DNA from: Agarophyton chilense
Lineage: Eukaryota > Rhodophyta > Florideophyceae > Gracilariales > Gracilariaceae
Reading direction: 5' to 3'
DNA: 59,562 nucleotides
Assembly: GCA_030374765.1 (NCBI GenBank)
Contig: JARGXX010000087.1
Location: 1 to 59,562 of the forward strand
The notes under the pieces are model-generated. The model worked only from the letters and a program-made list of their open reading frames with translations, did not search any database and was not told where the DNA came from. The translations under genes and the position numbers were made by a program. Shown piece by piece: positions 16,383 through 46,484 of this stretch. How positions within the stretch are numbered: position 1 is the stretch's first letter; every line of letters begins with the position of its first letter.

Positions 16383-16453
16383 GGCGACGGCACCTACTCC
16401 GCGTACAGGGGTTTTAGGGATTGAGTAAGGTGGTTGAAAGTGTGCTGCGTCGC
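16383..16453 (-). other. PLE junction module with telomere-complementary loop (first of ten)
   Basis: It spans the joint between adjacent units. GCGACG+GCA (16384-16392) pairs with TGC+CGTCGC (16443-16453) as 9 bp with a two-base bulge. Directly inside, CCTACTC (16393-16399) pairs with GAGTA-A-GG (16423-16430). The 23-nt apical loop holds GGGGTTTTAGGG (16408-16419), read as CCCUAAAACCCC in the element RNA. Further copies start at 19443, 22503, 25563, 28623, 31683, 34743, 37803, 40863 and 43923. The 349-bp satellite carries a related module. Confidence 0.75.
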
Positions 16454-16559
16454 GCAGAATGTAAGGGGGGGGAGAGAGAGAGACTGCTTAAGGACTAGGA
16501 CGCCCTTGAAGCCGGAAGGGGAGGGGGAAAGGGAAAGGGAGGGGAAGCGGGGTGAAGTG

Positions 16560-16610
16560 AACGATGTGGCAGAGCGCTTTCGTCTTTATGACTCCTCAGT
16601 GCCTTATGTT
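16560..16610 (-). ncRNA. Hammerhead ribozyme, unit 2
   Basis: Same sequence as unit 1. Predicted cleavage is between 16572 and 16571. Together with the unit 1 site it would release a 3060-nt RNA containing leader, ORF1, RT and 3' region. Confidence 0.85.
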
Positions 16611-16783
16611 GGGATGAGAAGGTTGGAAGAGAGGTGGAGAGCTCTCCACGGCTTCTTACATAGCCTCCTATGGCCCAAGCACTGCTCTACTTATGTTGCT
16701 CCCTATCTAATGAAACGAACATTACTAACTTAACTAAGCCCAGAGTGGGGTTTTTAGCCCCGTTCTTGGACAGTTGGTCATTT

Positions 16784-18409
16784 CTAATTGGTTCCATTAG
16801 TTTGGTTTTGAGTGCTATTGGCTAAGTCCGAAGACTTTGCTCCTTTCGCAATAGCACTTATGACATGGCGAGCTACTCCATTACCTCGTCTGAAGACAAG
16901 AGTACGTGGCCATTTCTCTTGGATTCCACTTCGCGGGACTTGAACTTCCATTAGTTCCTTGAAGCGGCGCCAGAACATCTTAATGCGAGGATGGAATCTG
17001 CAGACTACCCATCCTCCCAAGTCTGGAGATGGTTTGACGAACTTCTCAAGATATTTCGCCCTGTCTTGGTAAGACACATATTCCAAAGCAGCCCGTAGAT
17101 GCTGTCCTGTGTATCCACGATTCGCTAACATTCGGAATAGGATGCTTACTTTGGCCTCCCACGTATGTTTATCGGAAGTGTTACGGAGATATCTTATCAT
17201 TTCTCCTTTCACGATTCCTGACAAAGTATGCGTGGGATGGTTGGACTTTCCATGGAGATATAGGAACTTGGAGATGGGCTTTGTGTATACCCGAATGTCC
17301 ACAATGTTATGAAACATAAACCTCCTTCCTTTATATATCTCCAAGTCAAGATAGACTGCTTTTTTGGAGCTGATGTCCCATGTCATAGACAGGTTTGAAC
17401 AGGTGTTCAATCTATGCATGAGAGCCTCCGCAGTTGCCCTATCTCTGAGTATCACAAGTCCATCATCAATATAGCGGCGATTGATGATGATCTTGCTTAC
17501 AAAGTCCAAGAAGATTCCTCGAAACTTAAAGAACAAATAAAGGTTAGCAAATGCTGGAGCTACCGGTGTTCCAGTTGCTGTACCAATAAGCTGTCGATGT
17601 ACACCCTGTCCATCTGTTACATAGTTGTTAAACATGATGAACTCCAAAGCACGACACCAGAAGCCTTTGTTTGCCATGAATATGTGAGGCAATTCATGTA
17701 ACAGAGTTCTTATGGCGTCTCTGATATCGATGCTGGGGTAACATCGCTCCACGTCATACGTCAAGAAGACACAGTCTGACGGGAGCTCTATATGTTCCAA
17801 TTGCCTTACGGTTTGCCAGCTATTAACTGTTATAGCCGGAATCTTTTGCACCTCCTTGTTGAGAATGGTGCTAAGTTGTCTAGACAACCCCGACGTGATG
17901 TACGAGTGTGACGCCGTGATCGGTCTAGACTTCACCGTAGGCTTGTGAATCTTCGGTAGTACATAGAAGGGTGCCGGGAACTTGGCGCCTAAAGCGTATT
18001 CTAGCGTTTCATCTGTGAATTTCCTCCCCAGATTACATGCCAGCAAGATTGCGTTGAGGTTACCGAGGAGCCTTCCATGGGGGAATGAGCTTACCTCGGA
18101 GAATGCACCCTCACGAATCTCCTTGCGCACAAGGTCGTCGTAGAACTCTCGGCTCATAAGTGTGAGTCCGAGGTTCTTATCGGCTTGTTTGACGACCCAG
18201 TCCTTCGTCTTCATGTACTTAATACCTCGCATCAACGTTCGATGCAAGGCTGGGGGAATGTCATCCTCAATACGAGTGAGTTCTCTCTCAAACTTCCGTG
18301 TCACTCGCATAGCTAGGGGATGAACCATTCTCCCTGTCCCCGTTCCTAGTGCCTTAAAGAGGGGATCCACTGTATCTTCAAGGCATTCCTTTAATGGAGT
18401 TCGAAGCAT
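16784..18409 (-). CDS. PLE reverse transcriptase, unit 2
   Basis: 541 residues, identical to unit 1; the RYIDD catalytic motif is intact. Confidence 0.96.
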   Translation of the reverse strand: MLRTPLKECLEDTVDPLFKALGTGTGRMVHPLAMRVTRKFERELTRIEDDIPPALHRTLMRGIKYMKTKDWVVKQADKNLGLTLMSREFYDDLVRKEIREGAFSEVSSFPHGRLLGNLNAILLACNLGRKFTDETLEYALGAKFPAPFYVLPKIHKPTVKSRPITASHSYITSGLSRQLSTILNKEVQKIPAITVNSWQTVRQLEHIELPSDCVFLTYDVERCYPSIDIRDAIRTLLHELPHIFMANKGFWCRALEFIMFNNYVTDGQGVHRQLIGTATGTPVAPAFANLYLFFKFRGIFLDFVSKIIINRRYIDDGLVILRDRATAEALMHRLNTCSNLSMTWDISSKKAVYLDLEIYKGRRFMFHNIVDIRVYTKPISKFLYLHGKSNHPTHTLSGIVKGEMIRYLRNTSDKHTWEAKVSILFRMLANRGYTGQHLRAALEYVSYQDRAKYLEKFVKPSPDLGGWVVCRFHPRIKMFWRRFKELMEVQVPRSGIQEKWPRTLVFRRGNGVARHVISAIAKGAKSSDLANSTQNQTNGTN

Positions 18410-18534
18410 GAACCCACCACCGACGGAGAGTACCTTTTTAACTTCAAAAGGTACTTCCTCGTCTTTGATTCCAACCGGTGGGTTATATTTGAACTCGCAG
18501 GAGAAGGAACGGGGCTTCCTTGGCCTGGAACGGT

Positions 18535-19422
18535 TTAATTTTGCCTGGCGCCCCGTCCGGCGGCGCCTGCCTTTCCGTTTTTCGGCTTCGGATTAGGCTT
18601 TACACTACTTTTCCCCGCTGCTTTAGCCCTGCCCTTTAGGGGCTTTTGTTTATTAGGGGCTTTTGGAGCTTTGGGGGGATTATTCTTACGAGAACTCTCC
18701 AAAACACTAATTCTATTTCTAAGGGCTGCTAGCTCCTTCCGCGTCTGATCGACCCCTTCTGGGGCCCCCTCTTCATCAGCCGATTGCGCGGATTTCTTCA
18801 GGAGGTCAGCTTTCTTTTTGGTGTTCTTTATGTAGCTACCTAGACCGCTCGCTATTGTGGCTTGTATCTTCTTATCATTCAGAGAAGATACAAACATTTC
18901 CTTGAACCTTTCACAGAGGTTCTTGGTTTGTTCATTGGTGACGTACGAAAGGCAAATGAGGCCCTCCGTAAGCGCCTCCTCCAAACTTTCGAAAGCTTCT
19001 TCGAGTAGTTTCCTTCGAGACTTTTTAAGCTCACGGACTTCGTCCAGTTTGGCTTGAATAAGAAGTTTCAGAAATTGTTTCGCAAAATTTTCCGAAAGTT
19101 GTTTGAACTGCGAGCTGTATTTGTCTATCTGAGCGCTTTGAAGCTGAGGCATACGGGGTACCACGATAGATTTCGGTATCGTATCCTCTTCAGCATGCTT
19201 CATCAATTGGCTCACATAGACTGTTCTGCGAGCGATCGTCTCATCCACTACTTGAATCTGTTTACGAAAGGGAGCGCAAACTTTTATTAAGAGTGGTTTC
19301 GTGAAGTCGAAGAGCATTTCGTCCGTACACTCCGGCTTATCGCCTAGGAGAGTTTCCTGGACTGGCTCGATTTCATCGACCTCTTCCTCTTGTGCACGTC
19401 TGACGATTGCACGACGAGGCAT
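18535..19422 (-). CDS. PLE ORF1, unit 2
   Basis: 295 residues, identical to unit 1. It overlaps the upstream extension of the RT frame of unit 2. Confidence 0.85.
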   Translation of the reverse strand: MPRRAIVRRAQEEEVDEIEPVQETLLGDKPECTDEMLFDFTKPLLIKVCAPFRKQIQVVDETIARRTVYVSQLMKHAEEDTIPKSIVVPRMPQLQSAQIDKYSSQFKQLSENFAKQFLKLLIQAKLDEVRELKKSRRKLLEEAFESLEEALTEGLICLSYVTNEQTKNLCERFKEMFVSSLNDKKIQATIASGLGSYIKNTKKKADLLKKSAQSADEEGAPEGVDQTRKELAALRNRISVLESSRKNNPPKAPKAPNKQKPLKGRAKAAGKSSVKPNPKPKNGKAGAAGRGARQN

Positions 19423-19619
19423 TGCGAAAGAGATTTGTGATCGGCGACGGCACCTACTCCGCGTACAGGGGTTTTAGGGATTGAGTAAGGTGGTTGAAAG
19501 TGTGCTGCGTCGCGCAGAATGTAAGGGGGGGGAGAGAGAGAGACTGCTTAAGGACTAGGACGCCCTTGAAGCCGGAAGGGGAGGGGGAAAGGGAAAGGGA
19601 GGGGAAGCGGGGTGAAGTG

Positions 19620-19670
19620 AACGATGTGGCAGAGCGCTTTCGTCTTTATGACTCCTCAGTGCCTTATGTT
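19620..19670 (-). ncRNA. Hammerhead ribozyme, unit 3
   Basis: Core identical to unit 1; predicted cleavage 19632/19631. Confidence 0.85.
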
Positions 19671-19843
19671 GGGATGAGAAGGTTGGAAGAGAGGTGGAGA
19701 GCTCTCCACGGCTTCTTACATAGCCTCCTATGGCCCAAGCACTGCTCTACTTATGTTGCTCCCTATCTAATGAAACGAACATTACTAACTTAACTAAGCC
19801 CAGAGTGGGGTTTTTAGCCCCGTTCTTGGACAGTTGGTCATTT

Positions 19844-21469
19844 CTAATTGGTTCCATTAGTTTGGTTTTGAGTGCTATTGGCTAAGTCCGAAGACTTTGC
19901 TCCTTTCGCAATAGCACTTATGACATGGCGAGCTACTCCATTACCTCGTCTGAAGACAAGAGTACGTGGCCATTTCTCTTGGATTCCACTTCGCGGGACT
20001 TGAACTTCCATTAGTTCCTTGAAGCGGCGCCAGAACATCTTAATGCGAGGATGGAATCTGCAGACTACCCATCCTCCCAAGTCTGGAGATGGTTTGACGA
20101 ACTTCTCAAGATATTTCGCCCTGTCTTGGTAAGACACATATTCCAAAGCAGCCCGTAGATGCTGTCCTGTGTATCCACGATTCGCTAACATTCGGAATAG
20201 GATGCTTACTTTGGCCTCCCACGTATGTTTATCGGAAGTGTTACGGAGATATCTTATCATTTCTCCTTTCACGATTCCTGACAAAGTATGCGTGGGATGG
20301 TTGGACTTTCCATGGAGATATAGGAACTTGGAGATGGGCTTTGTGTATACCCGAATGTCCACAATGTTATGAAACATAAACCTCCTTCCTTTATATATCT
20401 CCAAGTCAAGATAGACTGCTTTTTTGGAGCTGATGTCCCATGTCATAGACAGGTTTGAACAGGTGTTCAATCTATGCATGAGAGCCTCCGCAGTTGCCCT
20501 ATCTCTGAGTATCACAAGTCCATCATCAATATAGCGGCGATTGATGATGATCTTGCTTACAAAGTCCAAGAAGATTCCTCGAAACTTAAAGAACAAATAA
20601 AGGTTAGCAAATGCTGGAGCTACCGGTGTTCCAGTTGCTGTACCAATAAGCTGTCGATGTACACCCTGTCCATCTGTTACATAGTTGTTAAACATGATGA
20701 ACTCCAAAGCACGACACCAGAAGCCTTTGTTTGCCATGAATATGTGAGGCAATTCATGTAACAGAGTTCTTATGGCGTCTCTGATATCGATGCTGGGGTA
20801 ACATCGCTCCACGTCATACGTCAAGAAGACACAGTCTGACGGGAGCTCTATATGTTCCAATTGCCTTACGGTTTGCCAGCTATTAACTGTTATAGCCGGA
20901 ATCTTTTGCACCTCCTTGTTGAGAATGGTGCTAAGTTGTCTAGACAACCCCGACGTGATGTACGAGTGTGACGCCGTGATCGGTCTAGACTTCACCGTAG
21001 GCTTGTGAATCTTCGGTAGTACATAGAAGGGTGCCGGGAACTTGGCGCCTAAAGCGTATTCTAGCGTTTCATCTGTGAATTTCCTCCCCAGATTACATGC
21101 CAGCAAGATTGCGTTGAGGTTACCGAGGAGCCTTCCATGGGGGAATGAGCTTACCTCGGAGAATGCACCCTCACGAATCTCCTTGCGCACAAGGTCGTCG
21201 TAGAACTCTCGGCTCATAAGTGTGAGTCCGAGGTTCTTATCGGCTTGTTTGACGACCCAGTCCTTCGTCTTCATGTACTTAATACCTCGCATCAACGTTC
21301 GATGCAAGGCTGGGGGAATGTCATCCTCAATACGAGTGAGTTCTCTCTCAAACTTCCGTGTCACTCGCATAGCTAGGGGATGAACCATTCTCCCTGTCCC
21401 CGTTCCTAGTGCCTTAAAGAGGGGATCCACTGTATCTTCAAGGCATTCCTTTAATGGAGTTCGAAGCAT
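19844..21469 (-). CDS. PLE reverse transcriptase, unit 3
   Basis: 541 residues, identical to unit 1. Confidence 0.96.
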   Translation of the reverse strand: MLRTPLKECLEDTVDPLFKALGTGTGRMVHPLAMRVTRKFERELTRIEDDIPPALHRTLMRGIKYMKTKDWVVKQADKNLGLTLMSREFYDDLVRKEIREGAFSEVSSFPHGRLLGNLNAILLACNLGRKFTDETLEYALGAKFPAPFYVLPKIHKPTVKSRPITASHSYITSGLSRQLSTILNKEVQKIPAITVNSWQTVRQLEHIELPSDCVFLTYDVERCYPSIDIRDAIRTLLHELPHIFMANKGFWCRALEFIMFNNYVTDGQGVHRQLIGTATGTPVAPAFANLYLFFKFRGIFLDFVSKIIINRRYIDDGLVILRDRATAEALMHRLNTCSNLSMTWDISSKKAVYLDLEIYKGRRFMFHNIVDIRVYTKPISKFLYLHGKSNHPTHTLSGIVKGEMIRYLRNTSDKHTWEAKVSILFRMLANRGYTGQHLRAALEYVSYQDRAKYLEKFVKPSPDLGGWVVCRFHPRIKMFWRRFKELMEVQVPRSGIQEKWPRTLVFRRGNGVARHVISAIAKGAKSSDLANSTQNQTNGTN

Positions 21470-21594
21470 GAACCCACCACCGACGGAGAGTACCTTTTTA
21501 ACTTCAAAAGGTACTTCCTCGTCTTTGATTCCAACCGGTGGGTTATATTTGAACTCGCAGGAGAAGGAACGGGGCTTCCTTGGCCTGGAACGGT

Positions 21595-22482
21595 TTAATT
21601 TTGCCTGGCGCCCCGTCCGGCGGCGCCTGCCTTTCCGTTTTTCGGCTTCGGATTAGGCTTTACACTACTTTTCCCCGCTGCTTTAGCCCTGCCCTTTAGG
21701 GGCTTTTGTTTATTAGGGGCTTTTGGAGCTTTGGGGGGATTATTCTTACGAGAACTCTCCAAAACACTAATTCTATTTCTAAGGGCTGCTAGCTCCTTCC
21801 GCGTCTGATCGACCCCTTCTGGGGCCCCCTCTTCATCAGCCGATTGCGCGGATTTCTTCAGGAGGTCAGCTTTCTTTTTGGTGTTCTTTATGTAGCTACC
21901 TAGACCGCTCGCTATTGTGGCTTGTATCTTCTTATCATTCAGAGAAGATACAAACATTTCCTTGAACCTTTCACAGAGGTTCTTGGTTTGTTCATTGGTG
22001 ACGTACGAAAGGCAAATGAGGCCCTCCGTAAGCGCCTCCTCCAAACTTTCGAAAGCTTCTTCGAGTAGTTTCCTTCGAGACTTTTTAAGCTCACGGACTT
22101 CGTCCAGTTTGGCTTGAATAAGAAGTTTCAGAAATTGTTTCGCAAAATTTTCCGAAAGTTGTTTGAACTGCGAGCTGTATTTGTCTATCTGAGCGCTTTG
22201 AAGCTGAGGCATACGGGGTACCACGATAGATTTCGGTATCGTATCCTCTTCAGCATGCTTCATCAATTGGCTCACATAGACTGTTCTGCGAGCGATCGTC
22301 TCATCCACTACTTGAATCTGTTTACGAAAGGGAGCGCAAACTTTTATTAAGAGTGGTTTCGTGAAGTCGAAGAGCATTTCGTCCGTACACTCCGGCTTAT
22401 CGCCTAGGAGAGTTTCCTGGACTGGCTCGATTTCATCGACCTCTTCCTCTTGTGCACGTCTGACGATTGCACGACGAGGCAT
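21595..22482 (-). CDS. PLE ORF1, unit 3
   Basis: 295 residues, identical to unit 1. Confidence 0.85.
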   Translation of the reverse strand: MPRRAIVRRAQEEEVDEIEPVQETLLGDKPECTDEMLFDFTKPLLIKVCAPFRKQIQVVDETIARRTVYVSQLMKHAEEDTIPKSIVVPRMPQLQSAQIDKYSSQFKQLSENFAKQFLKLLIQAKLDEVRELKKSRRKLLEEAFESLEEALTEGLICLSYVTNEQTKNLCERFKEMFVSSLNDKKIQATIASGLGSYIKNTKKKADLLKKSAQSADEEGAPEGVDQTRKELAALRNRISVLESSRKNNPPKAPKAPNKQKPLKGRAKAAGKSSVKPNPKPKNGKAGAAGRGARQN

Positions 22483-22679
22483 TGCGAAAGAGATTTGTGA
22501 TCGGCGACGGCACCTACTCCGCGTACAGGGGTTTTAGGGATTGAGTAAGGTGGTTGAAAGTGTGCTGCGTCGCGCAGAATGTAAGGGGGGGGAGAGAGAG
22601 AGACTGCTTAAGGACTAGGACGCCCTTGAAGCCGGAAGGGGAGGGGGAAAGGGAAAGGGAGGGGAAGCGGGGTGAAGTG

Positions 22680-22730
22680 AACGATGTGGCAGAGCGCTTT
22701 CGTCTTTATGACTCCTCAGTGCCTTATGTT
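22680..22730 (-). ncRNA. Hammerhead ribozyme, unit 4
   Basis: Core identical to unit 1; predicted cleavage 22692/22691. Confidence 0.85.
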
Positions 22731-22903
22731 GGGATGAGAAGGTTGGAAGAGAGGTGGAGAGCTCTCCACGGCTTCTTACATAGCCTCCTATGGCCCAAGC
22801 ACTGCTCTACTTATGTTGCTCCCTATCTAATGAAACGAACATTACTAACTTAACTAAGCCCAGAGTGGGGTTTTTAGCCCCGTTCTTGGACAGTTGGTCA
22901 TTT

Positions 22904-24529
22904 CTAATTGGTTCCATTAGTTTGGTTTTGAGTGCTATTGGCTAAGTCCGAAGACTTTGCTCCTTTCGCAATAGCACTTATGACATGGCGAGCTACTCCA
23001 TTACCTCGTCTGAAGACAAGAGTACGTGGCCATTTCTCTTGGATTCCACTTCGCGGGACTTGAACTTCCATTAGTTCCTTGAAGCGGCGCCAGAACATCT
23101 TAATGCGAGGATGGAATCTGCAGACTACCCATCCTCCCAAGTCTGGAGATGGTTTGACGAACTTCTCAAGATATTTCGCCCTGTCTTGGTAAGACACATA
23201 TTCCAAAGCAGCCCGTAGATGCTGTCCTGTGTATCCACGATTCGCTAACATTCGGAATAGGATGCTTACTTTGGCCTCCCACGTATGTTTATCGGAAGTG
23301 TTACGGAGATATCTTATCATTTCTCCTTTCACGATTCCTGACAAAGTATGCGTGGGATGGTTGGACTTTCCATGGAGATATAGGAACTTGGAGATGGGCT
23401 TTGTGTATACCCGAATGTCCACAATGTTATGAAACATAAACCTCCTTCCTTTATATATCTCCAAGTCAAGATAGACTGCTTTTTTGGAGCTGATGTCCCA
23501 TGTCATAGACAGGTTTGAACAGGTGTTCAATCTATGCATGAGAGCCTCCGCAGTTGCCCTATCTCTGAGTATCACAAGTCCATCATCAATATAGCGGCGA
23601 TTGATGATGATCTTGCTTACAAAGTCCAAGAAGATTCCTCGAAACTTAAAGAACAAATAAAGGTTAGCAAATGCTGGAGCTACCGGTGTTCCAGTTGCTG
23701 TACCAATAAGCTGTCGATGTACACCCTGTCCATCTGTTACATAGTTGTTAAACATGATGAACTCCAAAGCACGACACCAGAAGCCTTTGTTTGCCATGAA
23801 TATGTGAGGCAATTCATGTAACAGAGTTCTTATGGCGTCTCTGATATCGATGCTGGGGTAACATCGCTCCACGTCATACGTCAAGAAGACACAGTCTGAC
23901 GGGAGCTCTATATGTTCCAATTGCCTTACGGTTTGCCAGCTATTAACTGTTATAGCCGGAATCTTTTGCACCTCCTTGTTGAGAATGGTGCTAAGTTGTC
24001 TAGACAACCCCGACGTGATGTACGAGTGTGACGCCGTGATCGGTCTAGACTTCACCGTAGGCTTGTGAATCTTCGGTAGTACATAGAAGGGTGCCGGGAA
24101 CTTGGCGCCTAAAGCGTATTCTAGCGTTTCATCTGTGAATTTCCTCCCCAGATTACATGCCAGCAAGATTGCGTTGAGGTTACCGAGGAGCCTTCCATGG
24201 GGGAATGAGCTTACCTCGGAGAATGCACCCTCACGAATCTCCTTGCGCACAAGGTCGTCGTAGAACTCTCGGCTCATAAGTGTGAGTCCGAGGTTCTTAT
24301 CGGCTTGTTTGACGACCCAGTCCTTCGTCTTCATGTACTTAATACCTCGCATCAACGTTCGATGCAAGGCTGGGGGAATGTCATCCTCAATACGAGTGAG
24401 TTCTCTCTCAAACTTCCGTGTCACTCGCATAGCTAGGGGATGAACCATTCTCCCTGTCCCCGTTCCTAGTGCCTTAAAGAGGGGATCCACTGTATCTTCA
24501 AGGCATTCCTTTAATGGAGTTCGAAGCAT
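22904..24529 (-). CDS. PLE reverse transcriptase, unit 4
   Basis: 541 residues, identical to unit 1. Confidence 0.96.
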   Translation of the reverse strand: MLRTPLKECLEDTVDPLFKALGTGTGRMVHPLAMRVTRKFERELTRIEDDIPPALHRTLMRGIKYMKTKDWVVKQADKNLGLTLMSREFYDDLVRKEIREGAFSEVSSFPHGRLLGNLNAILLACNLGRKFTDETLEYALGAKFPAPFYVLPKIHKPTVKSRPITASHSYITSGLSRQLSTILNKEVQKIPAITVNSWQTVRQLEHIELPSDCVFLTYDVERCYPSIDIRDAIRTLLHELPHIFMANKGFWCRALEFIMFNNYVTDGQGVHRQLIGTATGTPVAPAFANLYLFFKFRGIFLDFVSKIIINRRYIDDGLVILRDRATAEALMHRLNTCSNLSMTWDISSKKAVYLDLEIYKGRRFMFHNIVDIRVYTKPISKFLYLHGKSNHPTHTLSGIVKGEMIRYLRNTSDKHTWEAKVSILFRMLANRGYTGQHLRAALEYVSYQDRAKYLEKFVKPSPDLGGWVVCRFHPRIKMFWRRFKELMEVQVPRSGIQEKWPRTLVFRRGNGVARHVISAIAKGAKSSDLANSTQNQTNGTN

Positions 24530-24654
24530 GAACCCACCACCGACGGAGAGTACCTTTTTAACTTCAAAAGGTACTTCCTCGTCTTTGATTCCAACCGGTG
24601 GGTTATATTTGAACTCGCAGGAGAAGGAACGGGGCTTCCTTGGCCTGGAACGGT

Positions 24655-25542
24655 TTAATTTTGCCTGGCGCCCCGTCCGGCGGCGCCTGCCTTTCCGTTT
24701 TTCGGCTTCGGATTAGGCTTTACACTACTTTTCCCCGCTGCTTTAGCCCTGCCCTTTAGGGGCTTTTGTTTATTAGGGGCTTTTGGAGCTTTGGGGGGAT
24801 TATTCTTACGAGAACTCTCCAAAACACTAATTCTATTTCTAAGGGCTGCTAGCTCCTTCCGCGTCTGATCGACCCCTTCTGGGGCCCCCTCTTCATCAGC
24901 CGATTGCGCGGATTTCTTCAGGAGGTCAGCTTTCTTTTTGGTGTTCTTTATGTAGCTACCTAGACCGCTCGCTATTGTGGCTTGTATCTTCTTATCATTC
25001 AGAGAAGATACAAACATTTCCTTGAACCTTTCACAGAGGTTCTTGGTTTGTTCATTGGTGACGTACGAAAGGCAAATGAGGCCCTCCGTAAGCGCCTCCT
25101 CCAAACTTTCGAAAGCTTCTTCGAGTAGTTTCCTTCGAGACTTTTTAAGCTCACGGACTTCGTCCAGTTTGGCTTGAATAAGAAGTTTCAGAAATTGTTT
25201 CGCAAAATTTTCCGAAAGTTGTTTGAACTGCGAGCTGTATTTGTCTATCTGAGCGCTTTGAAGCTGAGGCATACGGGGTACCACGATAGATTTCGGTATC
25301 GTATCCTCTTCAGCATGCTTCATCAATTGGCTCACATAGACTGTTCTGCGAGCGATCGTCTCATCCACTACTTGAATCTGTTTACGAAAGGGAGCGCAAA
25401 CTTTTATTAAGAGTGGTTTCGTGAAGTCGAAGAGCATTTCGTCCGTACACTCCGGCTTATCGCCTAGGAGAGTTTCCTGGACTGGCTCGATTTCATCGAC
25501 CTCTTCCTCTTGTGCACGTCTGACGATTGCACGACGAGGCAT
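24655..25542 (-). CDS. PLE ORF1, unit 4
   Basis: 295 residues, identical to unit 1. Confidence 0.85.
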   Translation of the reverse strand: MPRRAIVRRAQEEEVDEIEPVQETLLGDKPECTDEMLFDFTKPLLIKVCAPFRKQIQVVDETIARRTVYVSQLMKHAEEDTIPKSIVVPRMPQLQSAQIDKYSSQFKQLSENFAKQFLKLLIQAKLDEVRELKKSRRKLLEEAFESLEEALTEGLICLSYVTNEQTKNLCERFKEMFVSSLNDKKIQATIASGLGSYIKNTKKKADLLKKSAQSADEEGAPEGVDQTRKELAALRNRISVLESSRKNNPPKAPKAPNKQKPLKGRAKAAGKSSVKPNPKPKNGKAGAAGRGARQN

Positions 25543-25739
25543 TGCGAAAGAGATTTGTGATCGGCGACGGCACCTACTCCGCGTACAGGGGTTTTAGGGA
25601 TTGAGTAAGGTGGTTGAAAGTGTGCTGCGTCGCGCAGAATGTAAGGGGGGGGAGAGAGAGAGACTGCTTAAGGACTAGGACGCCCTTGAAGCCGGAAGGG
25701 GAGGGGGAAAGGGAAAGGGAGGGGAAGCGGGGTGAAGTG

Positions 25740-25790
25740 AACGATGTGGCAGAGCGCTTTCGTCTTTATGACTCCTCAGTGCCTTATGTT
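25740..25790 (-). ncRNA. Hammerhead ribozyme, unit 5
   Basis: Core identical to unit 1; predicted cleavage 25752/25751. Confidence 0.85.
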
Positions 25791-37782: not shown

Positions 37783-37979
37783 TGCGAAAGAGATTTGTGA
37801 TCGGCGACGGCACCTACTCCGCGTACAGGGGTTTTAGGGATTGAGTAAGGTGGTTGAAAGTGTGCTGCGTCGCGCAGAATGTAAGGGGGGGGAGAGAGAG
37901 AGACTGCTTAAGGACTAGGACGCCCTTGAAGCCGGAAGGGGAGGGGGAAAGGGAAAGGGAGGGGAAGCGGGGTGAAGTG

Positions 37980-38030
37980 AACGATGTGGCAGAGCGCTTT
38001 CGTCTTTATGACTCCTCAGTGCCTTATGTT
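37980..38030 (-). ncRNA. Hammerhead ribozyme, unit 9
   Basis: Core identical to unit 1; predicted cleavage 37992/37991. Confidence 0.85.
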
Positions 38031-38203
38031 GGGATGAGAAGGTTGGAAGAGAGGTGGAGAGCTCTCCACGGCTTCTTACATAGCCTCCTATGGCCCAAGC
38101 ACTGCTCTACTTATGTTGCTCCCTATCTAATGAAACGAACATTACTAACTTAACTAAGCCCAGAGTGGGGTTTTTAGCCCCGTTCTTGGACAGTTGGTCA
38201 TTT

Positions 38204-39829
38204 CTAATTGGTTCCATTAGTTTGGTTTTGAGTGCTATTGGCTAAGTCCGAAGACTTTGCTCCTTTCGCAATAGCACTTATGACATGGCGAGCTACTCCA
38301 TTACCTCGTCTGAAGACAAGAGTACGTGGCCATTTCTCTTGGATTCCACTTCGCGGGACTTGAACTTCCATTAGTTCCTTGAAGCGGCGCCAGAACATCT
38401 TAATGCGAGGATGGAATCTGCAGACTACCCATCCTCCCAAGTCTGGAGATGGTTTGACGAACTTCTCAAGATATTTCGCCCTGTCTTGGTAAGACACATA
38501 TTCCAAAGCAGCCCGTAGATGCTGTCCTGTGTATCCACGATTCGCTAACATTCGGAATAGGATGCTTACTTTGGCCTCCCACGTATGTTTATCGGAAGTG
38601 TTACGGAGATATCTTATCATTTCTCCTTTCACGATTCCTGACAAAGTATGCGTGGGATGGTTGGACTTTCCATGGAGATATAGGAACTTGGAGATGGGCT
38701 TTGTGTATACCCGAATGTCCACAATGTTATGAAACATAAACCTCCTTCCTTTATATATCTCCAAGTCAAGATAGACTGCTTTTTTGGAGCTGATGTCCCA
38801 TGTCATAGACAGGTTTGAACAGGTGTTCAATCTATGCATGAGAGCCTCCGCAGTTGCCCTATCTCTGAGTATCACAAGTCCATCATCAATATAGCGGCGA
38901 TTGATGATGATCTTGCTTACAAAGTCCAAGAAGATTCCTCGAAACTTAAAGAACAAATAAAGGTTAGCAAATGCTGGAGCTACCGGTGTTCCAGTTGCTG
39001 TACCAATAAGCTGTCGATGTACACCCTGTCCATCTGTTACATAGTTGTTAAACATGATGAACTCCAAAGCACGACACCAGAAGCCTTTGTTTGCCATGAA
39101 TATGTGAGGCAATTCATGTAACAGAGTTCTTATGGCGTCTCTGATATCGATGCTGGGGTAACATCGCTCCACGTCATACGTCAAGAAGACACAGTCTGAC
39201 GGGAGCTCTATATGTTCCAATTGCCTTACGGTTTGCCAGCTATTAACTGTTATAGCCGGAATCTTTTGCACCTCCTTGTTGAGAATGGTGCTAAGTTGTC
39301 TAGACAACCCCGACGTGATGTACGAGTGTGACGCCGTGATCGGTCTAGACTTCACCGTAGGCTTGTGAATCTTCGGTAGTACATAGAAGGGTGCCGGGAA
39401 CTTGGCGCCTAAAGCGTATTCTAGCGTTTCATCTGTGAATTTCCTCCCCAGATTACATGCCAGCAAGATTGCGTTGAGGTTACCGAGGAGCCTTCCATGG
39501 GGGAATGAGCTTACCTCGGAGAATGCACCCTCACGAATCTCCTTGCGCACAAGGTCGTCGTAGAACTCTCGGCTCATAAGTGTGAGTCCGAGGTTCTTAT
39601 CGGCTTGTTTGACGACCCAGTCCTTCGTCTTCATGTACTTAATACCTCGCATCAACGTTCGATGCAAGGCTGGGGGAATGTCATCCTCAATACGAGTGAG
39701 TTCTCTCTCAAACTTCCGTGTCACTCGCATAGCTAGGGGATGAACCATTCTCCCTGTCCCCGTTCCTAGTGCCTTAAAGAGGGGATCCACTGTATCTTCA
39801 AGGCATTCCTTTAATGGAGTTCGAAGCAT
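38204..39829 (-). CDS. PLE reverse transcriptase, unit 9
   Basis: 541 residues, identical to unit 1. Confidence 0.96.
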   Translation of the reverse strand: MLRTPLKECLEDTVDPLFKALGTGTGRMVHPLAMRVTRKFERELTRIEDDIPPALHRTLMRGIKYMKTKDWVVKQADKNLGLTLMSREFYDDLVRKEIREGAFSEVSSFPHGRLLGNLNAILLACNLGRKFTDETLEYALGAKFPAPFYVLPKIHKPTVKSRPITASHSYITSGLSRQLSTILNKEVQKIPAITVNSWQTVRQLEHIELPSDCVFLTYDVERCYPSIDIRDAIRTLLHELPHIFMANKGFWCRALEFIMFNNYVTDGQGVHRQLIGTATGTPVAPAFANLYLFFKFRGIFLDFVSKIIINRRYIDDGLVILRDRATAEALMHRLNTCSNLSMTWDISSKKAVYLDLEIYKGRRFMFHNIVDIRVYTKPISKFLYLHGKSNHPTHTLSGIVKGEMIRYLRNTSDKHTWEAKVSILFRMLANRGYTGQHLRAALEYVSYQDRAKYLEKFVKPSPDLGGWVVCRFHPRIKMFWRRFKELMEVQVPRSGIQEKWPRTLVFRRGNGVARHVISAIAKGAKSSDLANSTQNQTNGTN

Positions 39830-39954
39830 GAACCCACCACCGACGGAGAGTACCTTTTTAACTTCAAAAGGTACTTCCTCGTCTTTGATTCCAACCGGTG
39901 GGTTATATTTGAACTCGCAGGAGAAGGAACGGGGCTTCCTTGGCCTGGAACGGT

Positions 39955-40842
39955 TTAATTTTGCCTGGCGCCCCGTCCGGCGGCGCCTGCCTTTCCGTTT
40001 TTCGGCTTCGGATTAGGCTTTACACTACTTTTCCCCGCTGCTTTAGCCCTGCCCTTTAGGGGCTTTTGTTTATTAGGGGCTTTTGGAGCTTTGGGGGGAT
40101 TATTCTTACGAGAACTCTCCAAAACACTAATTCTATTTCTAAGGGCTGCTAGCTCCTTCCGCGTCTGATCGACCCCTTCTGGGGCCCCCTCTTCATCAGC
40201 CGATTGCGCGGATTTCTTCAGGAGGTCAGCTTTCTTTTTGGTGTTCTTTATGTAGCTACCTAGACCGCTCGCTATTGTGGCTTGTATCTTCTTATCATTC
40301 AGAGAAGATACAAACATTTCCTTGAACCTTTCACAGAGGTTCTTGGTTTGTTCATTGGTGACGTACGAAAGGCAAATGAGGCCCTCCGTAAGCGCCTCCT
40401 CCAAACTTTCGAAAGCTTCTTCGAGTAGTTTCCTTCGAGACTTTTTAAGCTCACGGACTTCGTCCAGTTTGGCTTGAATAAGAAGTTTCAGAAATTGTTT
40501 CGCAAAATTTTCCGAAAGTTGTTTGAACTGCGAGCTGTATTTGTCTATCTGAGCGCTTTGAAGCTGAGGCATACGGGGTACCACGATAGATTTCGGTATC
40601 GTATCCTCTTCAGCATGCTTCATCAATTGGCTCACATAGACTGTTCTGCGAGCGATCGTCTCATCCACTACTTGAATCTGTTTACGAAAGGGAGCGCAAA
40701 CTTTTATTAAGAGTGGTTTCGTGAAGTCGAAGAGCATTTCGTCCGTACACTCCGGCTTATCGCCTAGGAGAGTTTCCTGGACTGGCTCGATTTCATCGAC
40801 CTCTTCCTCTTGTGCACGTCTGACGATTGCACGACGAGGCAT
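39955..40842 (-). CDS. PLE ORF1, unit 9
   Basis: 295 residues, identical to unit 1. Confidence 0.85.
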   Translation of the reverse strand: MPRRAIVRRAQEEEVDEIEPVQETLLGDKPECTDEMLFDFTKPLLIKVCAPFRKQIQVVDETIARRTVYVSQLMKHAEEDTIPKSIVVPRMPQLQSAQIDKYSSQFKQLSENFAKQFLKLLIQAKLDEVRELKKSRRKLLEEAFESLEEALTEGLICLSYVTNEQTKNLCERFKEMFVSSLNDKKIQATIASGLGSYIKNTKKKADLLKKSAQSADEEGAPEGVDQTRKELAALRNRISVLESSRKNNPPKAPKAPNKQKPLKGRAKAAGKSSVKPNPKPKNGKAGAAGRGARQN

Positions 40843-41039
40843 TGCGAAAGAGATTTGTGATCGGCGACGGCACCTACTCCGCGTACAGGGGTTTTAGGGA
40901 TTGAGTAAGGTGGTTGAAAGTGTGCTGCGTCGCGCAGAATGTAAGGGGGGGGAGAGAGAGAGACTGCTTAAGGACTAGGACGCCCTTGAAGCCGGAAGGG
41001 GAGGGGGAAAGGGAAAGGGAGGGGAAGCGGGGTGAAGTG

Positions 41040-41090
41040 AACGATGTGGCAGAGCGCTTTCGTCTTTATGACTCCTCAGTGCCTTATGTT
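41040..41090 (-). ncRNA. Hammerhead ribozyme, unit 10
   Basis: Core identical to unit 1; predicted cleavage 41052/41051. Confidence 0.85.
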
Positions 41091-41263
41091 GGGATGAGAA
41101 GGTTGGAAGAGAGGTGGAGAGCTCTCCACGGCTTCTTACATAGCCTCCTATGGCCCAAGCACTGCTCTACTTATGTTGCTCCCTATCTAATGAAACGAAC
41201 ATTACTAACTTAACTAAGCCCAGAGTGGGGTTTTTAGCCCCGTTCTTGGACAGTTGGTCATTT

Positions 41264-42889
41264 CTAATTGGTTCCATTAGTTTGGTTTTGAGTGCTATTG
41301 GCTAAGTCCGAAGACTTTGCTCCTTTCGCAATAGCACTTATGACATGGCGAGCTACTCCATTACCTCGTCTGAAGACAAGAGTACGTGGCCATTTCTCTT
41401 GGATTCCACTTCGCGGGACTTGAACTTCCATTAGTTCCTTGAAGCGGCGCCAGAACATCTTAATGCGAGGATGGAATCTGCAGACTACCCATCCTCCCAA
41501 GTCTGGAGATGGTTTGACGAACTTCTCAAGATATTTCGCCCTGTCTTGGTAAGACACATATTCCAAAGCAGCCCGTAGATGCTGTCCTGTGTATCCACGA
41601 TTCGCTAACATTCGGAATAGGATGCTTACTTTGGCCTCCCACGTATGTTTATCGGAAGTGTTACGGAGATATCTTATCATTTCTCCTTTCACGATTCCTG
41701 ACAAAGTATGCGTGGGATGGTTGGACTTTCCATGGAGATATAGGAACTTGGAGATGGGCTTTGTGTATACCCGAATGTCCACAATGTTATGAAACATAAA
41801 CCTCCTTCCTTTATATATCTCCAAGTCAAGATAGACTGCTTTTTTGGAGCTGATGTCCCATGTCATAGACAGGTTTGAACAGGTGTTCAATCTATGCATG
41901 AGAGCCTCCGCAGTTGCCCTATCTCTGAGTATCACAAGTCCATCATCAATATAGCGGCGATTGATGATGATCTTGCTTACAAAGTCCAAGAAGATTCCTC
42001 GAAACTTAAAGAACAAATAAAGGTTAGCAAATGCTGGAGCTACCGGTGTTCCAGTTGCTGTACCAATAAGCTGTCGATGTACACCCTGTCCATCTGTTAC
42101 ATAGTTGTTAAACATGATGAACTCCAAAGCACGACACCAGAAGCCTTTGTTTGCCATGAATATGTGAGGCAATTCATGTAACAGAGTTCTTATGGCGTCT
42201 CTGATATCGATGCTGGGGTAACATCGCTCCACGTCATACGTCAAGAAGACACAGTCTGACGGGAGCTCTATATGTTCCAATTGCCTTACGGTTTGCCAGC
42301 TATTAACTGTTATAGCCGGAATCTTTTGCACCTCCTTGTTGAGAATGGTGCTAAGTTGTCTAGACAACCCCGACGTGATGTACGAGTGTGACGCCGTGAT
42401 CGGTCTAGACTTCACCGTAGGCTTGTGAATCTTCGGTAGTACATAGAAGGGTGCCGGGAACTTGGCGCCTAAAGCGTATTCTAGCGTTTCATCTGTGAAT
42501 TTCCTCCCCAGATTACATGCCAGCAAGATTGCGTTGAGGTTACCGAGGAGCCTTCCATGGGGGAATGAGCTTACCTCGGAGAATGCACCCTCACGAATCT
42601 CCTTGCGCACAAGGTCGTCGTAGAACTCTCGGCTCATAAGTGTGAGTCCGAGGTTCTTATCGGCTTGTTTGACGACCCAGTCCTTCGTCTTCATGTACTT
42701 AATACCTCGCATCAACGTTCGATGCAAGGCTGGGGGAATGTCATCCTCAATACGAGTGAGTTCTCTCTCAAACTTCCGTGTCACTCGCATAGCTAGGGGA
42801 TGAACCATTCTCCCTGTCCCCGTTCCTAGTGCCTTAAAGAGGGGATCCACTGTATCTTCAAGGCATTCCTTTAATGGAGTTCGAAGCAT
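41264..42889 (-). CDS. PLE reverse transcriptase, unit 10
   Basis: 541 residues, identical to unit 1. It is the outermost complete RT gene. Confidence 0.96.
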   Translation of the reverse strand: MLRTPLKECLEDTVDPLFKALGTGTGRMVHPLAMRVTRKFERELTRIEDDIPPALHRTLMRGIKYMKTKDWVVKQADKNLGLTLMSREFYDDLVRKEIREGAFSEVSSFPHGRLLGNLNAILLACNLGRKFTDETLEYALGAKFPAPFYVLPKIHKPTVKSRPITASHSYITSGLSRQLSTILNKEVQKIPAITVNSWQTVRQLEHIELPSDCVFLTYDVERCYPSIDIRDAIRTLLHELPHIFMANKGFWCRALEFIMFNNYVTDGQGVHRQLIGTATGTPVAPAFANLYLFFKFRGIFLDFVSKIIINRRYIDDGLVILRDRATAEALMHRLNTCSNLSMTWDISSKKAVYLDLEIYKGRRFMFHNIVDIRVYTKPISKFLYLHGKSNHPTHTLSGIVKGEMIRYLRNTSDKHTWEAKVSILFRMLANRGYTGQHLRAALEYVSYQDRAKYLEKFVKPSPDLGGWVVCRFHPRIKMFWRRFKELMEVQVPRSGIQEKWPRTLVFRRGNGVARHVISAIAKGAKSSDLANSTQNQTNGTN

Positions 42890-43014
42890 GAACCCACCAC
42901 CGACGGAGAGTACCTTTTTAACTTCAAAAGGTACTTCCTCGTCTTTGATTCCAACCGGTGGGTTATATTTGAACTCGCAGGAGAAGGAACGGGGCTTCCT
43001 TGGCCTGGAACGGT

Positions 43015-43902
43015 TTAATTTTGCCTGGCGCCCCGTCCGGCGGCGCCTGCCTTTCCGTTTTTCGGCTTCGGATTAGGCTTTACACTACTTTTCCCCGCTG
43101 CTTTAGCCCTGCCCTTTAGGGGCTTTTGTTTATTAGGGGCTTTTGGAGCTTTGGGGGGATTATTCTTACGAGAACTCTCCAAAACACTAATTCTATTTCT
43201 AAGGGCTGCTAGCTCCTTCCGCGTCTGATCGACCCCTTCTGGGGCCCCCTCTTCATCAGCCGATTGCGCGGATTTCTTCAGGAGGTCAGCTTTCTTTTTG
43301 GTGTTCTTTATGTAGCTACCTAGACCGCTCGCTATTGTGGCTTGTATCTTCTTATCATTCAGAGAAGATACAAACATTTCCTTGAACCTTTCACAGAGGT
43401 TCTTGGTTTGTTCATTGGTGACGTACGAAAGGCAAATGAGGCCCTCCGTAAGCGCCTCCTCCAAACTTTCGAAAGCTTCTTCGAGTAGTTTCCTTCGAGA
43501 CTTTTTAAGCTCACGGACTTCGTCCAGTTTGGCTTGAATAAGAAGTTTCAGAAATTGTTTCGCAAAATTTTCCGAAAGTTGTTTGAACTGCGAGCTGTAT
43601 TTGTCTATCTGAGCGCTTTGAAGCTGAGGCATACGGGGTACCACGATAGATTTCGGTATCGTATCCTCTTCAGCATGCTTCATCAATTGGCTCACATAGA
43701 CTGTTCTGCGAGCGATCGTCTCATCCACTACTTGAATCTGTTTACGAAAGGGAGCGCAAACTTTTATTAAGAGTGGTTTCGTGAAGTCGAAGAGCATTTC
43801 GTCCGTACACTCCGGCTTATCGCCTAGGAGAGTTTCCTGGACTGGCTCGATTTCATCGACCTCTTCCTCTTGTGCACGTCTGACGATTGCACGACGAGGC
43901 AT
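43015..43902 (-). CDS. PLE ORF1, unit 10
   Basis: 295 residues, identical to unit 1. It is the outermost ORF1, because unit 11 has lost its own. Confidence 0.85.
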   Translation of the reverse strand: MPRRAIVRRAQEEEVDEIEPVQETLLGDKPECTDEMLFDFTKPLLIKVCAPFRKQIQVVDETIARRTVYVSQLMKHAEEDTIPKSIVVPRMPQLQSAQIDKYSSQFKQLSENFAKQFLKLLIQAKLDEVRELKKSRRKLLEEAFESLEEALTEGLICLSYVTNEQTKNLCERFKEMFVSSLNDKKIQATIASGLGSYIKNTKKKADLLKKSAQSADEEGAPEGVDQTRKELAALRNRISVLESSRKNNPPKAPKAPNKQKPLKGRAKAAGKSSVKPNPKPKNGKAGAAGRGARQN

Positions 43903-44099
43903 TGCGAAAGAGATTTGTGATCGGCGACGGCACCTACTCCGCGTACAGGGGTTTTAGGGATTGAGTAAGGTGGTTGAAAGTGTGCTGCGTCGCGCAGAAT
44001 GTAAGGGGGGGGAGAGAGAGAGACTGCTTAAGGACTAGGACGCCCTTGAAGCCGGAAGGGGAGGGGGAAAGGGAAAGGGAGGGGAAGCGGGGTGAAGTG

Positions 44100-44150
44100 A
44101 ACGATGTGGCAGAGCGCTTTCGTCTTTATGACTCCTCAGTGCCTTATGTT
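44100..44150 (-). ncRNA. Hammerhead ribozyme, unit 11
   Basis: Intact core; predicted cleavage 44112/44111. It is retained although the unit is truncated further upstream. Confidence 0.85.
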
Positions 44151-44323
44151 GGGATGAGAAGGTTGGAAGAGAGGTGGAGAGCTCTCCACGGCTTCTTACA
44201 TAGCCTCCTATGGCCCAAGCACTGCTCTACTTATGTTGCTCCCTATCTAATGAAACGAACATTACTAACTTAACTAAGCCCAGAGTGGGGTTTTTAGCCC
44301 CGTTCTTGGACAGTTGGTCATTT

Positions 44324-45779
44324 CTAATTGGTTCCATTAGTTTGGTTTTGAGTGCTATTGGCTAAGTCCGAAGACTTTGCTCCTTTCGCAATAGCACTTA
44401 TGACATGGCGAGCTACTCCATTACCTCGTCTGAAGACAAGAGTACGTGGCCATTTCTCTTGGATTCCACTTCGCGGGACTTGAACTTCCATTAGTTCCTT
44501 GAAGCGGCGCCAGAACATCTTAATGCGAGGATGGAATCTGCAGACTACCCATCCTCCCAAGTCTGGAGATGGTTTGACGAACTTCTCAAGATATTTCGCC
44601 CTGTCTTGGTAAGACACATATTCCAAAGCAGCCCGTAGATGCTGTCCTGTGTATCCACGATTCGCTAACATTCGGAATAGGATGCTTACTTTGGCCTCCC
44701 ACGTATGTTTATCGGAAGTGTTACGGAGATATCTTATCATTTCTCCTTTCACGATTCCTGACAAAGTATGCGTGGGATGGTTGGACTTTCCATGGAGATA
44801 TAGGAACTTGGAGATGGGCTTTGTGTATACCCGAATGTCCACAATGTTATGAAACATAAACCTCCTTCCTTTATATATCTCCAAGTCAAGATAGACTGCT
44901 TTTTTGGAGCTGATGTCCCATGTCATAGACAGGTTTGAACAGGTGTTCAATCTATGCATGAGAGCCTCCGCAGTTGCCCTATCTCTGAGTATCACAAGTC
45001 CATCATCAATATAGCGGCGATTGATGATGATCTTGCTTACAAAGTCCAAGAAGATTCCTCGAAACTTAAAGAACAAATAAAGGTTAGCAAATGCTGGAGC
45101 TACCGGTGTTCCAGTTGCTGTACCAATAAGCTGTCGATGTACACCCTGTCCATCTGTTACATAGTTGTTAAACATGATGAACTCCAAAGCACGACACCAG
45201 AAGCCTTTGTTTGCCATGAATATGTGAGGCAATTCATGTAACAGAGTTCTTATGGCGTCTCTGATATCGATGCTGGGGTAACATCGCTCCACGTCATACG
45301 TCAAGAAGACACAGTCTGACGGGAGCTCTATATGTTCCAATTGCCTTACGGTTTGCCAGCTATTAACTGTTATAGCCGGAATCTTTTGCACCTCCTTGTT
45401 GAGAATGGTGCTAAGTTGTCTAGACAACCCCGACGTGATGTACGAGTGTGACGCCGTGATCGGTCTAGACTTCACCGTAGGCTTGTGAATCTTCGGTAGT
45501 ACATAGAAGGGTGCCGGGAACTTGGCGCCTAAAGCGTATTCTAGCGTTTCATCTGTGAATTTCCTCCCCAGATTACATGCCAGCAAGATTGCGTTGAGGT
45601 TACCGAGGAGCCTTCCATGGGGGAATGAGCTTACCTCGGAGAATGCACCCTCACGAATCTCCTTGCGCACAAGGTCGTCGTAGAACTCTCGGCTCATAAG
45701 TGTGAGTCCGAGGTTCTTATCGGCTTGTTTGACGACCCAGTCCTTCGTCTTCATGTACTTAATACCTCGCATCAACGTT
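44324..45779 (-). pseudogene. PLE reverse transcriptase, unit 11, N-terminally truncated
   Basis: It keeps residues ~59-541 of the RT, including all catalytic motifs. The 5' end is replaced by telomeric sequence, so the normal start, the frameshift signal and ORF1 are absent. The open frame happens to run to a TTG at 45775, which is not evidence for translation. Confidence 0.9.
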
Positions 45780-46384
45780 TAGGGGTTTAGGGGTTTTAGG
45801 GGTTTAGGGGTTTTAGGGGTTTAAGGGGGTTTTAGGGGTTTAGGGGTTTTAGGGCGTTTTTAGGGGTTTTAGGGGTTTAGGGGTTTTAGGGGTTTAGGGG
45901 TTTTAGGGCGGGGTTTAGGGCTTTAGGGCGTTTAGGGGTTTTAGGGCGTTTAGGGGGGTTTAGGGCGTTTAGGGGTTTAGGGCGTTTAGGGGGTTTAGGG
46001 CGTTTAGGGGTTTAGGGGTTTTAGGGGTTTAGGGGTTTAGGGGTTTTAGGGGTTTAGGGGTTTTAGGGGTTTAGGGGTTTTAGGGGTTTTAGGGGTTTTA
46101 GGGGTTTTAGGGGTTTAGGGGTTTTAGGGGTTTTAGGGGTTTTAGGGGTTTTAGGGGTTTAGGGGTTTAGGGGTTTTAGGGGTTTAGGGGTTTAGGGGTT
46201 TAGGGGGTTTTAGGGGTTTTAGGGGTTTAGGGGTTTAGGGGTTTTTTAGGGGTTTTAGGGGTTTAGGGGTTTAGGGGTTTAGGGGTTTAGGGGTTTTAGG
46301 GGTTTTAGGGGTTTTAGGGGTTTTAGGGGCGTTTTAGGGGTTTAGGGCGTTTTAGGGGTTTTAGGGCGTAGGGGTTTTTAGGGG
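45780..46384 (+). repeat. Interstitial telomeric block 2
   Basis: About 600 bp of GGGGTTTAG/GGGGTTTTAG with a higher share of GGGCG variants than the other blocks (clustered at ~45850-46010 and ~46330-46370). It joins the broken PLE unit 11 to the first satellite unit. Confidence 0.95.
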
Positions 46385-46412
46385 CAACTGTTCCCCTTAA
46401 GGGTACTTGGTT

Positions 46413-46484
46413 GGCGACGGCATTTTTCTATTCCGCGAACGGGGTTTAGGTGTTAAGAAATGCGGTGGGAATGTGCGGCGTCGC
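46413..46484 (-). other. Satellite module related to the PLE junction (first of 37)
   Basis: GGCGACGGCA (46413-46422), CTATTCCGCGAAC, GGGGTTTAGG (46441-46450), GGTGG and TGTGCGGCGTCGC (46472-46484) match the PLE junction in order and spacing. The 9-bp stem with a two-base bulge forms identically (46414-46422 with 46474-46484), although the bulge itself differs (GG instead of TG). A different inner pairing, TTTCT (46425-46429) with AGAAA (46456-46460), again leaves the telomere motif in the loop. It repeats every 349 bp. Confidence 0.75.

Follow-up and report, generated by a model that had tools for sequence, protein, structure and literature searches.

A telomere-complementary RNA hairpin shared by a Penelope-like element and a tRNA-headed satellite is a likely start site of telomere-primed reverse transcription in Agarophyton chilense

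RESULTS

Two telomeric arrays carry the same junction module

We analyzed 59,562 nt of the Agarophyton chilense contig JARGXX010000087.1 (here, the window), in which telomere repeats adjoin two tandem arrays, one of a Penelope-like element (PLE) without an endonuclease match and one of a noncoding 349-bp satellite. The sense strand of both is the minus strand, and related copies were sought in the same genome across 80 Mb in 135 contigs. Light-harvesting proteins were identified in this genome, as is to be expected of an alga; a chitin synthase search gave no match, but it was equally blank in the control genomes and is therefore uninformative. A short module with a telomere-complementary motif lies at the unit-unit junctions of both arrays, and the evidence below makes it likely that this module serves as a start site of reverse transcription. 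The layout of the arrays is as follows.

11776 to 13359, plus strand: telomere tract joined by the PLE array
13349 to 45779, minus strand: tandem array of the PLE-A family, 10 full units and one 5'-truncated unit; its inner end is fused to telomere repeats at the motif
45778 to 46384, plus strand: telomere tract that caps the PLE array and on which the satellite array lies
46384 to 59227, minus strand: 349-bp satellite array; its inner end, 57 nt past the motif, is an exception

An earlier note, made from the letters of the window, had aligned the PLE junction at 16383 to 16453 with the satellite at 46413 to 46484, and the module was found in both stretches. The best local score of a satellite unit against the PLE unit was 34, compared to a maximum of 22 for 300 dinucleotide-shuffled satellites (mean, 14.9; standard deviation, 1.8). 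The alignment spans essentially the module alone, the rest of the units being unrelated, and further family versions carry the outer stem (P1, below) as well; the similarity claimed by the note thus extends beyond the telomere motif. The module recurs at unit-unit junctions throughout both arrays and consists of two half-modules, one at each unit end, that are brought together at tandem junctions. Its parts, including the inner stem P2, are listed here.

16383 to 16453, minus strand: complete module at a PLE-A unit-unit junction; the window has 10 such junctions, spaced 3060 bp apart
16448 to 16453, minus strand: P1 5' strand GCGACG, PLE-A, in the 3'-terminal half of the upstream unit (RNAalifold and pairing probability)
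16384 to 16389, minus strand: P1 3' strand CGUCGC, PLE-A, in the 5'-terminal half of the next unit (RNAalifold and pairing probability)
16437 to 16441, minus strand: putative P2 5' strand ACUUU, PLE-A (comparative support, low single-sequence probability)
16396 to 16400, minus strand: putative P2 3' strand GGAGU, PLE-A (comparative)
16408 to 16419, minus strand: telomere-complementary CCCUAAAACCCC in the PLE-A apical loop, where inserted copies start (junctions)
46413 to 46484, minus strand: complete module where the first two satellite units meet (sequence, alignment, RNAalifold)
46441 to 46450, minus strand: telomere-complementary CCUAAACCCC in the satellite loop (sequence, junctions)
46468 to 46472, minus strand: putative P2 5' strand AUUCC, satellite (comparative support, low single-sequence probability)
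46430 to 46434, minus strand: putative P2 3' strand GGAAU, satellite (comparative)

On the sense strand, the loop motif reads CC(C)UAAA(A)CC; the decayed PLE-C family has CCGAAACCCCC instead. Within the motif, internal junctions retain letters that are not telomeric; the three internal junctions of the PLE-B family that were examined, for instance, read CCTAAAACCTC. Both halves of P1 are kept in the PLE families and the satellite, and P2 covaries. These observations support the view of the earlier note that the module is functional rather than leftover target sequence. We conclude from the sequence comparison that the module is real, conserved, and more than a telomere motif.

The outer stem is firm and the inner stem probable

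A comparative fold was obtained with RNAalifold from five rows (PLE-A, PLE-B, PLE-C, the satellite, and an old satellite copy). It consists of P1 (GCGACG/CGUCGC), followed by a two-base bulge, the pairs GC(A)/(U)GC, and the five-pair P2. P1 is firm: its sequence is invariant, its pairing probability in single sequences is 0.97 to 0.99, and the outer stem with the two-base bulge, as described in the earlier note, is present in the PLE and the satellite alike. The P2 strands differ between families (ACUUU/GGAGU in PLE-A, AUUCC/GGAAU in the satellite, ACCUU/GAGGU in PLE-B, and ACCCU/GGGGU in PLE-C). In the RNAalifold alignment, all 25 of the 25 P2 cells are paired, and three of the five pairs show changes on both sides. 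When the partners were slid by 1 to 3 columns, whole-structure pairing fell from 95.4% to 28 to 65%, and among 500 shuffles, the covariation score was reached by 1 and the percentage paired by 1. Because four P2 cells are U-G, the minus strand is favored as the RNA sense; single-sequence folding z-scores, a weak signal, ranged from -1.4 to -2.6 on this strand and from -0.03 to -1.3 on the opposite strand. The mean pairing probability of P2 was 0.025 in PLE-A, 0.006 in the satellite, 0.37 in PLE-B, and 0.67 in PLE-C, and by eye, PLE-A, PLE-B, and the satellite can each form other loop-adjacent helices that compete with it. Together, the comparative data suggest that P2 probably forms, enclosing a loop of 31 to 38 nt, and the PLE reverse transcriptase (RT) might stabilize it.

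The covariation that the earlier note had proposed to look for was found in P2, across the five rows, and not in the second stem that the note had drawn (CUUACUC/GAGUAGG with a 23-nt loop). In that stem, 66.7% of cells are paired and one of six pairs changed on both sides; its columns are poorly aligned, so that the test there is not a strong one.

Inserted copies begin at the loop motif and end anywhere

Inner ends of arrays were located by BLAST in selected loci; the satellite loci were picked by searching with a whole unit, and six PLE-B ends were reached from RT positions. With one locus at a contig edge (L043) left out, 28 inner ends are joined to telomere repeats, and in 25 of these the joint is at the loop motif (satellite, 9/12; PLE-A, 8/8; PLE-B, 8/8). 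In contrast, 2 of 18 telomere-joined outer ends lie at the unit boundary, and the others are scattered over the unit. These 18 comprise 17 distinct ends (one cross-hit row was dropped, and L037 is rearranged) and the satellite end in the window; the two at the boundary belong to L029 and L030, where the arrays end exactly at GUUCGCGG. Such one-sided ends fit priming on the 3' side of an RNA, 5' truncation, and a telomere cap, but not a symmetrical recombination. Annealing to the telomeric G-overhang for priming, the first role that the earlier note had considered, is thus well supported.

The letters at the junctions are informative as well. All eight telomere-joined PLE-B ends read CCTAAAACCCC, unlike the internal PLE-B junctions, and the telomere-joined PLE-A ends carry three or four A's; therefore, the overhang can supply letters of the motif. 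Two PLE-B copies lie away from telomere repeats (C34 and C105), and the uninserted paralogues of these sites carry GAAACCCC and TAAAACCCC, suggesting that they follow the same annealing logic as the telomere junctions.

The PLE encodes a telomerase-like reverse transcriptase and a predicted hammerhead ribozyme

The 3060-bp PLE-A unit contains two open reading frames (ORFs).

15475 to 16362, minus strand: PLE-A ORF1, with its first ATG at nt 46 of the unit
13724 to 15532, minus strand: PLE-A ORF2, telomerase-like RT without an endonuclease match
16568 to 16603, minus strand: minimal type I hammerhead core GGCA-CUGAGGA-GUC-AUAAA-GAC-GAAA-GCGCUC/UGCC (slash, cut predicted between 16572 and 16571)

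No endonuclease family, including GIY-YIG, was detected by Pfam in ORF1 or ORF2. The predicted fold of the RT resembles telomerase by structure comparison. A sequence search with the RT against solved structures gave no match; 66 relatives were found among metagenome proteins without informative names, the closest of them (P0001 to P0003) being 64 to 73% identical, and none was confirmed in viral_contigs or genome_contigs. Three further families were recognized: PLE-B (RT 71% identical to that of PLE-A; spacing, 3232 bp), PLE-C (an old family with four near-identical copies on contig 98), and PLE-D (known from its 3' half at L070). In L044 (contig 89), two private variants, 272G>A and 2282C>T, are common to the PLE-A units that span these positions, a pattern that a single shared template or homogenization could produce.

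A hammerhead core, GGCA-CUGANGA-GUC-loop-GAC-GAAA-GCGCUC/UGCC, was found by hand in PLE-A, PLE-B, and PLE-D. It has CUGANGA, stem II, GAAA, a short stem III, a UH cut site, and stem I, matching the consensus of the type I, PLE-like hammerheads. Eleven copies occur in the window against 0 expected, and genome-wide the pattern gave 66 matches against 0 for a reversed control pattern; one further match in L034, outside any PLE, was taken as chance. Rfam at an E value of 10 did not flag a hammerhead in the PLE, and neither this core nor the Pol III boxes of the satellite (below) figure in the earlier note. The cut of the predicted ribozyme would precede the end of the telomere motif by 164 (PLE-A), 247 (PLE-B), or 147 nt (PLE-D). 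Long inserted PLE copies extend through this site, and the template of these copies must therefore be uncut RNA.

The satellite has a tRNA-like head

46615 to 46668, minus strand: tRNA-like A box TAGCTCAGTGG and B box GGTTCAATTCC, 43 nt start to start (pattern match)

Both boxes together occurred in 0 of 50,000 shuffled satellite units, with a pattern set after the sequence had been viewed, an earlier and stricter pattern having found nothing. Two tandem units gave 2 sense and 0 antisense matches. The boxes were assigned by the A/B box consensus of RNA polymerase III (Pol III). The Rfam tRNA score of the satellite, 15.9, is below the cutoff of 29, and ARAGORN found no tRNA in the satellite; by sequence, the head is tRNA-like and not a tRNA. 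Scanning the satellite units of the window and of further loci revealed no hammerhead core. The 3' tail is shared with the autonomous PLE partner, and old interior copies in L039 and L040 are single and diverged (79.7 to 87.8% identical). The satellite is probably transcribed by Pol III and looks like a telomere-targeted SINE-like (short interspersed element-like) parasite of the PLE that may reach chromosome ends on the PLE enzyme. Retention of the same module in this otherwise unrelated noncoding unit also lends indirect support to another role considered in the earlier note, that of a recognition site for the PLE RT.

Two further stretches of telomere-like letters were noted. An old satellite copy in L041 (2199 to 2339) has several such segments, reflecting either conversion or an assembly artifact, and a degenerate telomere-like stretch lies at 59227 to 59284 of the window, immediately past the outer end of the satellite array.

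Neighboring repeats and reading frames

A repeat of ~950 bp lies on the minus strand of the window at 115 to 1072, 1177 to 2118, and 10682 to 11626, and also in L034, L047, L029, L030, L035, L041, L050, L067, L074, and L076. Its 3' end is fixed at CCTGTAATATATATA, and the flanks are varied in the 11 listed ends, those of L029 and L030 being alike. In 4 of the 11 it adjoins truncated PLE-B or satellite DNA. Template switching was considered for this adjacency to truncated copies and rejected, given the varied flanks, and we treat the repeat as a probable further mobile repeat. Between 2778 and 10734 of the window, also on the minus strand, lie subtelomeric frames with DEAD, Helicase_C helicase, OrsD, and N6_N4_Mtase domains, which may represent a telomere-linked helicase cassette.

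DISCUSSION

We consider it likely that the module acts in cis to initiate telomere-primed reverse transcription, both for an endonuclease-less PLE and for its parasitic, tRNA-headed satellite. Most likely, the telomeric G-overhang anneals to the motif and is extended from there by reverse transcription. In the mechanism that we propose, the tandem arrays would be transcribed on the minus strand, joining the 3' end half of one unit to the 5' end half of the next. P1 would then form, probably together with P2, and the loop would display CC(C)UAAA(A)CC. After binding of the hairpin by the telomerase-like RT, the 3' end of the (TTTAGGGG)n G-strand overhang would anneal to the loop and be extended, a step to which the junctions point. 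The enzyme would then proceed toward the 5' end of the RNA; in the PLE, it would pass the hammerhead and enter the coding region. Copies stop at scattered points and are followed by telomere repeats, a cap probably added by host telomerase. Satellite RNA, probably made by Pol III, may be copied in trans by means of the same module.

Several observations weigh against this explanation. Three of the 12 telomere-joined satellite inner ends are off the motif (window 46384, L036, and L037), as are the inner ends of L039, L040, and L047, which lie in non-telomeric DNA. PLE-D ends at CCTAAACCC next to non-telomeric DNA without a comparator. The 25 ends at the motif represent fewer than 25 independent events, as the flanks of the window and L057 are identical and L029 and L030 apparently derive from one event. 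Moreover, L074 to L081 were chosen for the 3' half of the module, so that any inner ends before it would have been missed there. The covariation of P2 comes from five rows, of which three are related PLE families and one is an old satellite; 107 of 500 shuffles match its count of double-sided pairs and 455 of 500 its count of pair types, and other inner pairings are energetically preferred over P2 in PLE-A and the satellite. Foldseek E values rank LINE-1 ORF2p first and telomerases next for the PLE RT, and in the structure comparison that likens its fold to telomerase, ranks 14 and 15 are tied. Finally, a single line of evidence, the sharing of the module, points to use of the PLE RT by the satellite.

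Could the junctions instead result from DNA-level recombination, in which telomere tracts exchange with the telomere-like letters of the unit and the hairpin is incidental? The motif is homologous to the telomere, the units of an array are near-identical, as homogenization would yield, and the odd inner ends at window 46384, L036, L037, and L047 would be accommodated, as would a PLE-B outer end (L061) at another telomere-like stretch within the unit, CCCCTAAA. However, recombination should affect both ends of an array, whereas the fit is largely confined to inner ends, and it predicts neither the retention of P1 at both unit ends nor the covariation of P2; we regard it as unlikely. Rolling-circle reverse transcription of hammerhead-processed PLE circles from the overhang, which would yield perfect arrays in one event, is compatible with initiation at the loop. 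Consistent with this, a hammerhead core is present in three PLE families, arrays have a single starting site but variable ends, the units of L044 share private variants, and metazoan retrozymes are known to yield circular RNAs from their hammerhead-bearing tandem repeats (PMC7229834). The satellite nonetheless forms arrays with no hammerhead core found in its units, and DNA-level amplification or multimeric linear RNA accounts equally well for arrays, leaving rolling-circle copying possible but doubtful.

Two remaining proposals assign a different activity to the loop. An undescribed self-cleaving ribozyme cut within it would release a 3' end at CCCUAAAACCCC, in keeping with the conservation of both half-modules around the loop and with the two arrays that end exactly at GUUCGCGG. 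These two arrays look like one event, though, no Rfam ribozyme family matches the module even at an E value of 10, and the PLE already carries a hammerhead core. In addition, the start of the satellite array in the window is 57 nt beyond the loop, and the sequence of L047 continues past the module, so that read-through RNA must exist or recombination must have occurred. We consider cleavage in the loop very unlikely. Alternatively, the loop might be a template copied repeatedly into telomere repeats; a telomerase-RNA-like template had also been raised in the earlier note. The loop does contain about 1.3 telomere repeats, and the PLE RT folds like TERT. Nevertheless, no repeated copying of the loop was seen at the junctions examined, copies continue beyond the hairpin into the element, and the variant letters CCTC of PLE-B are absent at that position in its eight telomere-joined ends. 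Furthermore, the genome has a TERT candidate of its own (contig 73:520546; telomerase RNA-binding domain match, 107.8 bits; open frame, 1158 amino acids). We view this role as very improbable.

The PLE has a telomerase-like RT, no GIY-YIG match, telomere attachment at its 3' end, 5' truncation, and a telomere cap, as do endonuclease-deficient telomeric PLEs. The closest known system appears to be that of the rotifer Terminons, in which reverse-complement telomere repeats are exposed beside a hammerhead fold (PMC6431247); endonuclease-less PLEs are likewise said to prime from exposed chromosome ends (PMC3846280). Telomere priming by PLEs is thus already known from these reports. Terminons and Athena, as described in bdelloid rotifers, share with the PLE studied here a telomerase-related RT without endonuclease and head-to-tail arrays (PMC6431247, PMC3846280, PMC12477314), as well as 5' truncation with a telomere-repeat cap and reverse-complement telomere letters at the 3' end with a hammerhead motif nearby; two-ORF endonuclease-less PLEs are also described in that literature. 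Terminons differ in being giant units with accessory ORFs, whereas PLE-A has 3060 bp and two ORFs. Here, moreover, a second hairpin, distinct from the hammerhead, holds the telomere letters in its loop. These letters end 147 to 247 nt past the predicted cut, and the hairpin around them is common to a noncoding satellite.

Other parallels concern the start site and the parasite. In Poseidon PAc of Anolis, reverse transcription also starts within the RNA, at a stem-loop downstream of a hammerhead; the layout is tandem (pseudo-long terminal repeats [pLTR]), a multi-unit RNA has been proposed, insertion persists when the hammerhead is mutated, and in vitro the RNA is used chiefly in its unprocessed form, matching the uncut template deduced here (PMC11167929). 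PAc differs in having a GIY-YIG endonuclease, in cutting AT-rich DNA, and in a start site that is not homologous to the target (PMC11167929), whereas the loop described here matches its target and the PLE has no endonuclease match. In stringent pairs of long and short interspersed elements (LINE/SINE), such as UnaL2 and ZfL2, the short element shares the 3' tail of its partner, whose protein recognizes a stem-loop (PMC4176376). Here, the partner is instead a PLE whose RT is telomerase-like, and the loop presumably doubles as the primer-annealing site; unlike those short elements, the satellite forms tandem telomeric arrays. Metazoan retrozymes are similarly tandem repeats of ~300 bp for which PLEs were proposed as mobilizers (PMC7229834), but they carry hammerheads; in the satellite no such core was found, and its features are instead the telomere hairpin and Pol III boxes of tRNA-like type. 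Among the literature matches listed, there was no prior report of a telomere-template hairpin common to a PLE and a tRNA-headed satellite, which is weak evidence of absence.

These data probably place the start site of an endonuclease-less telomeric PLE at the nucleotide level and tie it to a conserved RNA hairpin, so that RT recognition and overhang annealing become directly testable. They would also extend to PLEs, at telomeres, the kind of parasitism known from LINE/SINE pairs, and would explain a telomeric satellite as an RNA-borne parasite. More tentatively, the satellite RNA may be a Pol III template-loop RNA that the PLE RT uses in trans to build chromosome ends, an idea that we put forward as speculative. 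If true, satellite and PLE RT would formally be a second telomerase-like ribonucleoprotein, one that adds a 349-bp repeat, and the pair would be a living model for how a retrotransposon RT and a template noncoding RNA might have become telomerase. Given that the PLE RT resembles telomerase in fold, such use of a template-loop noncoding RNA in trans would bear on the origin of telomerase.

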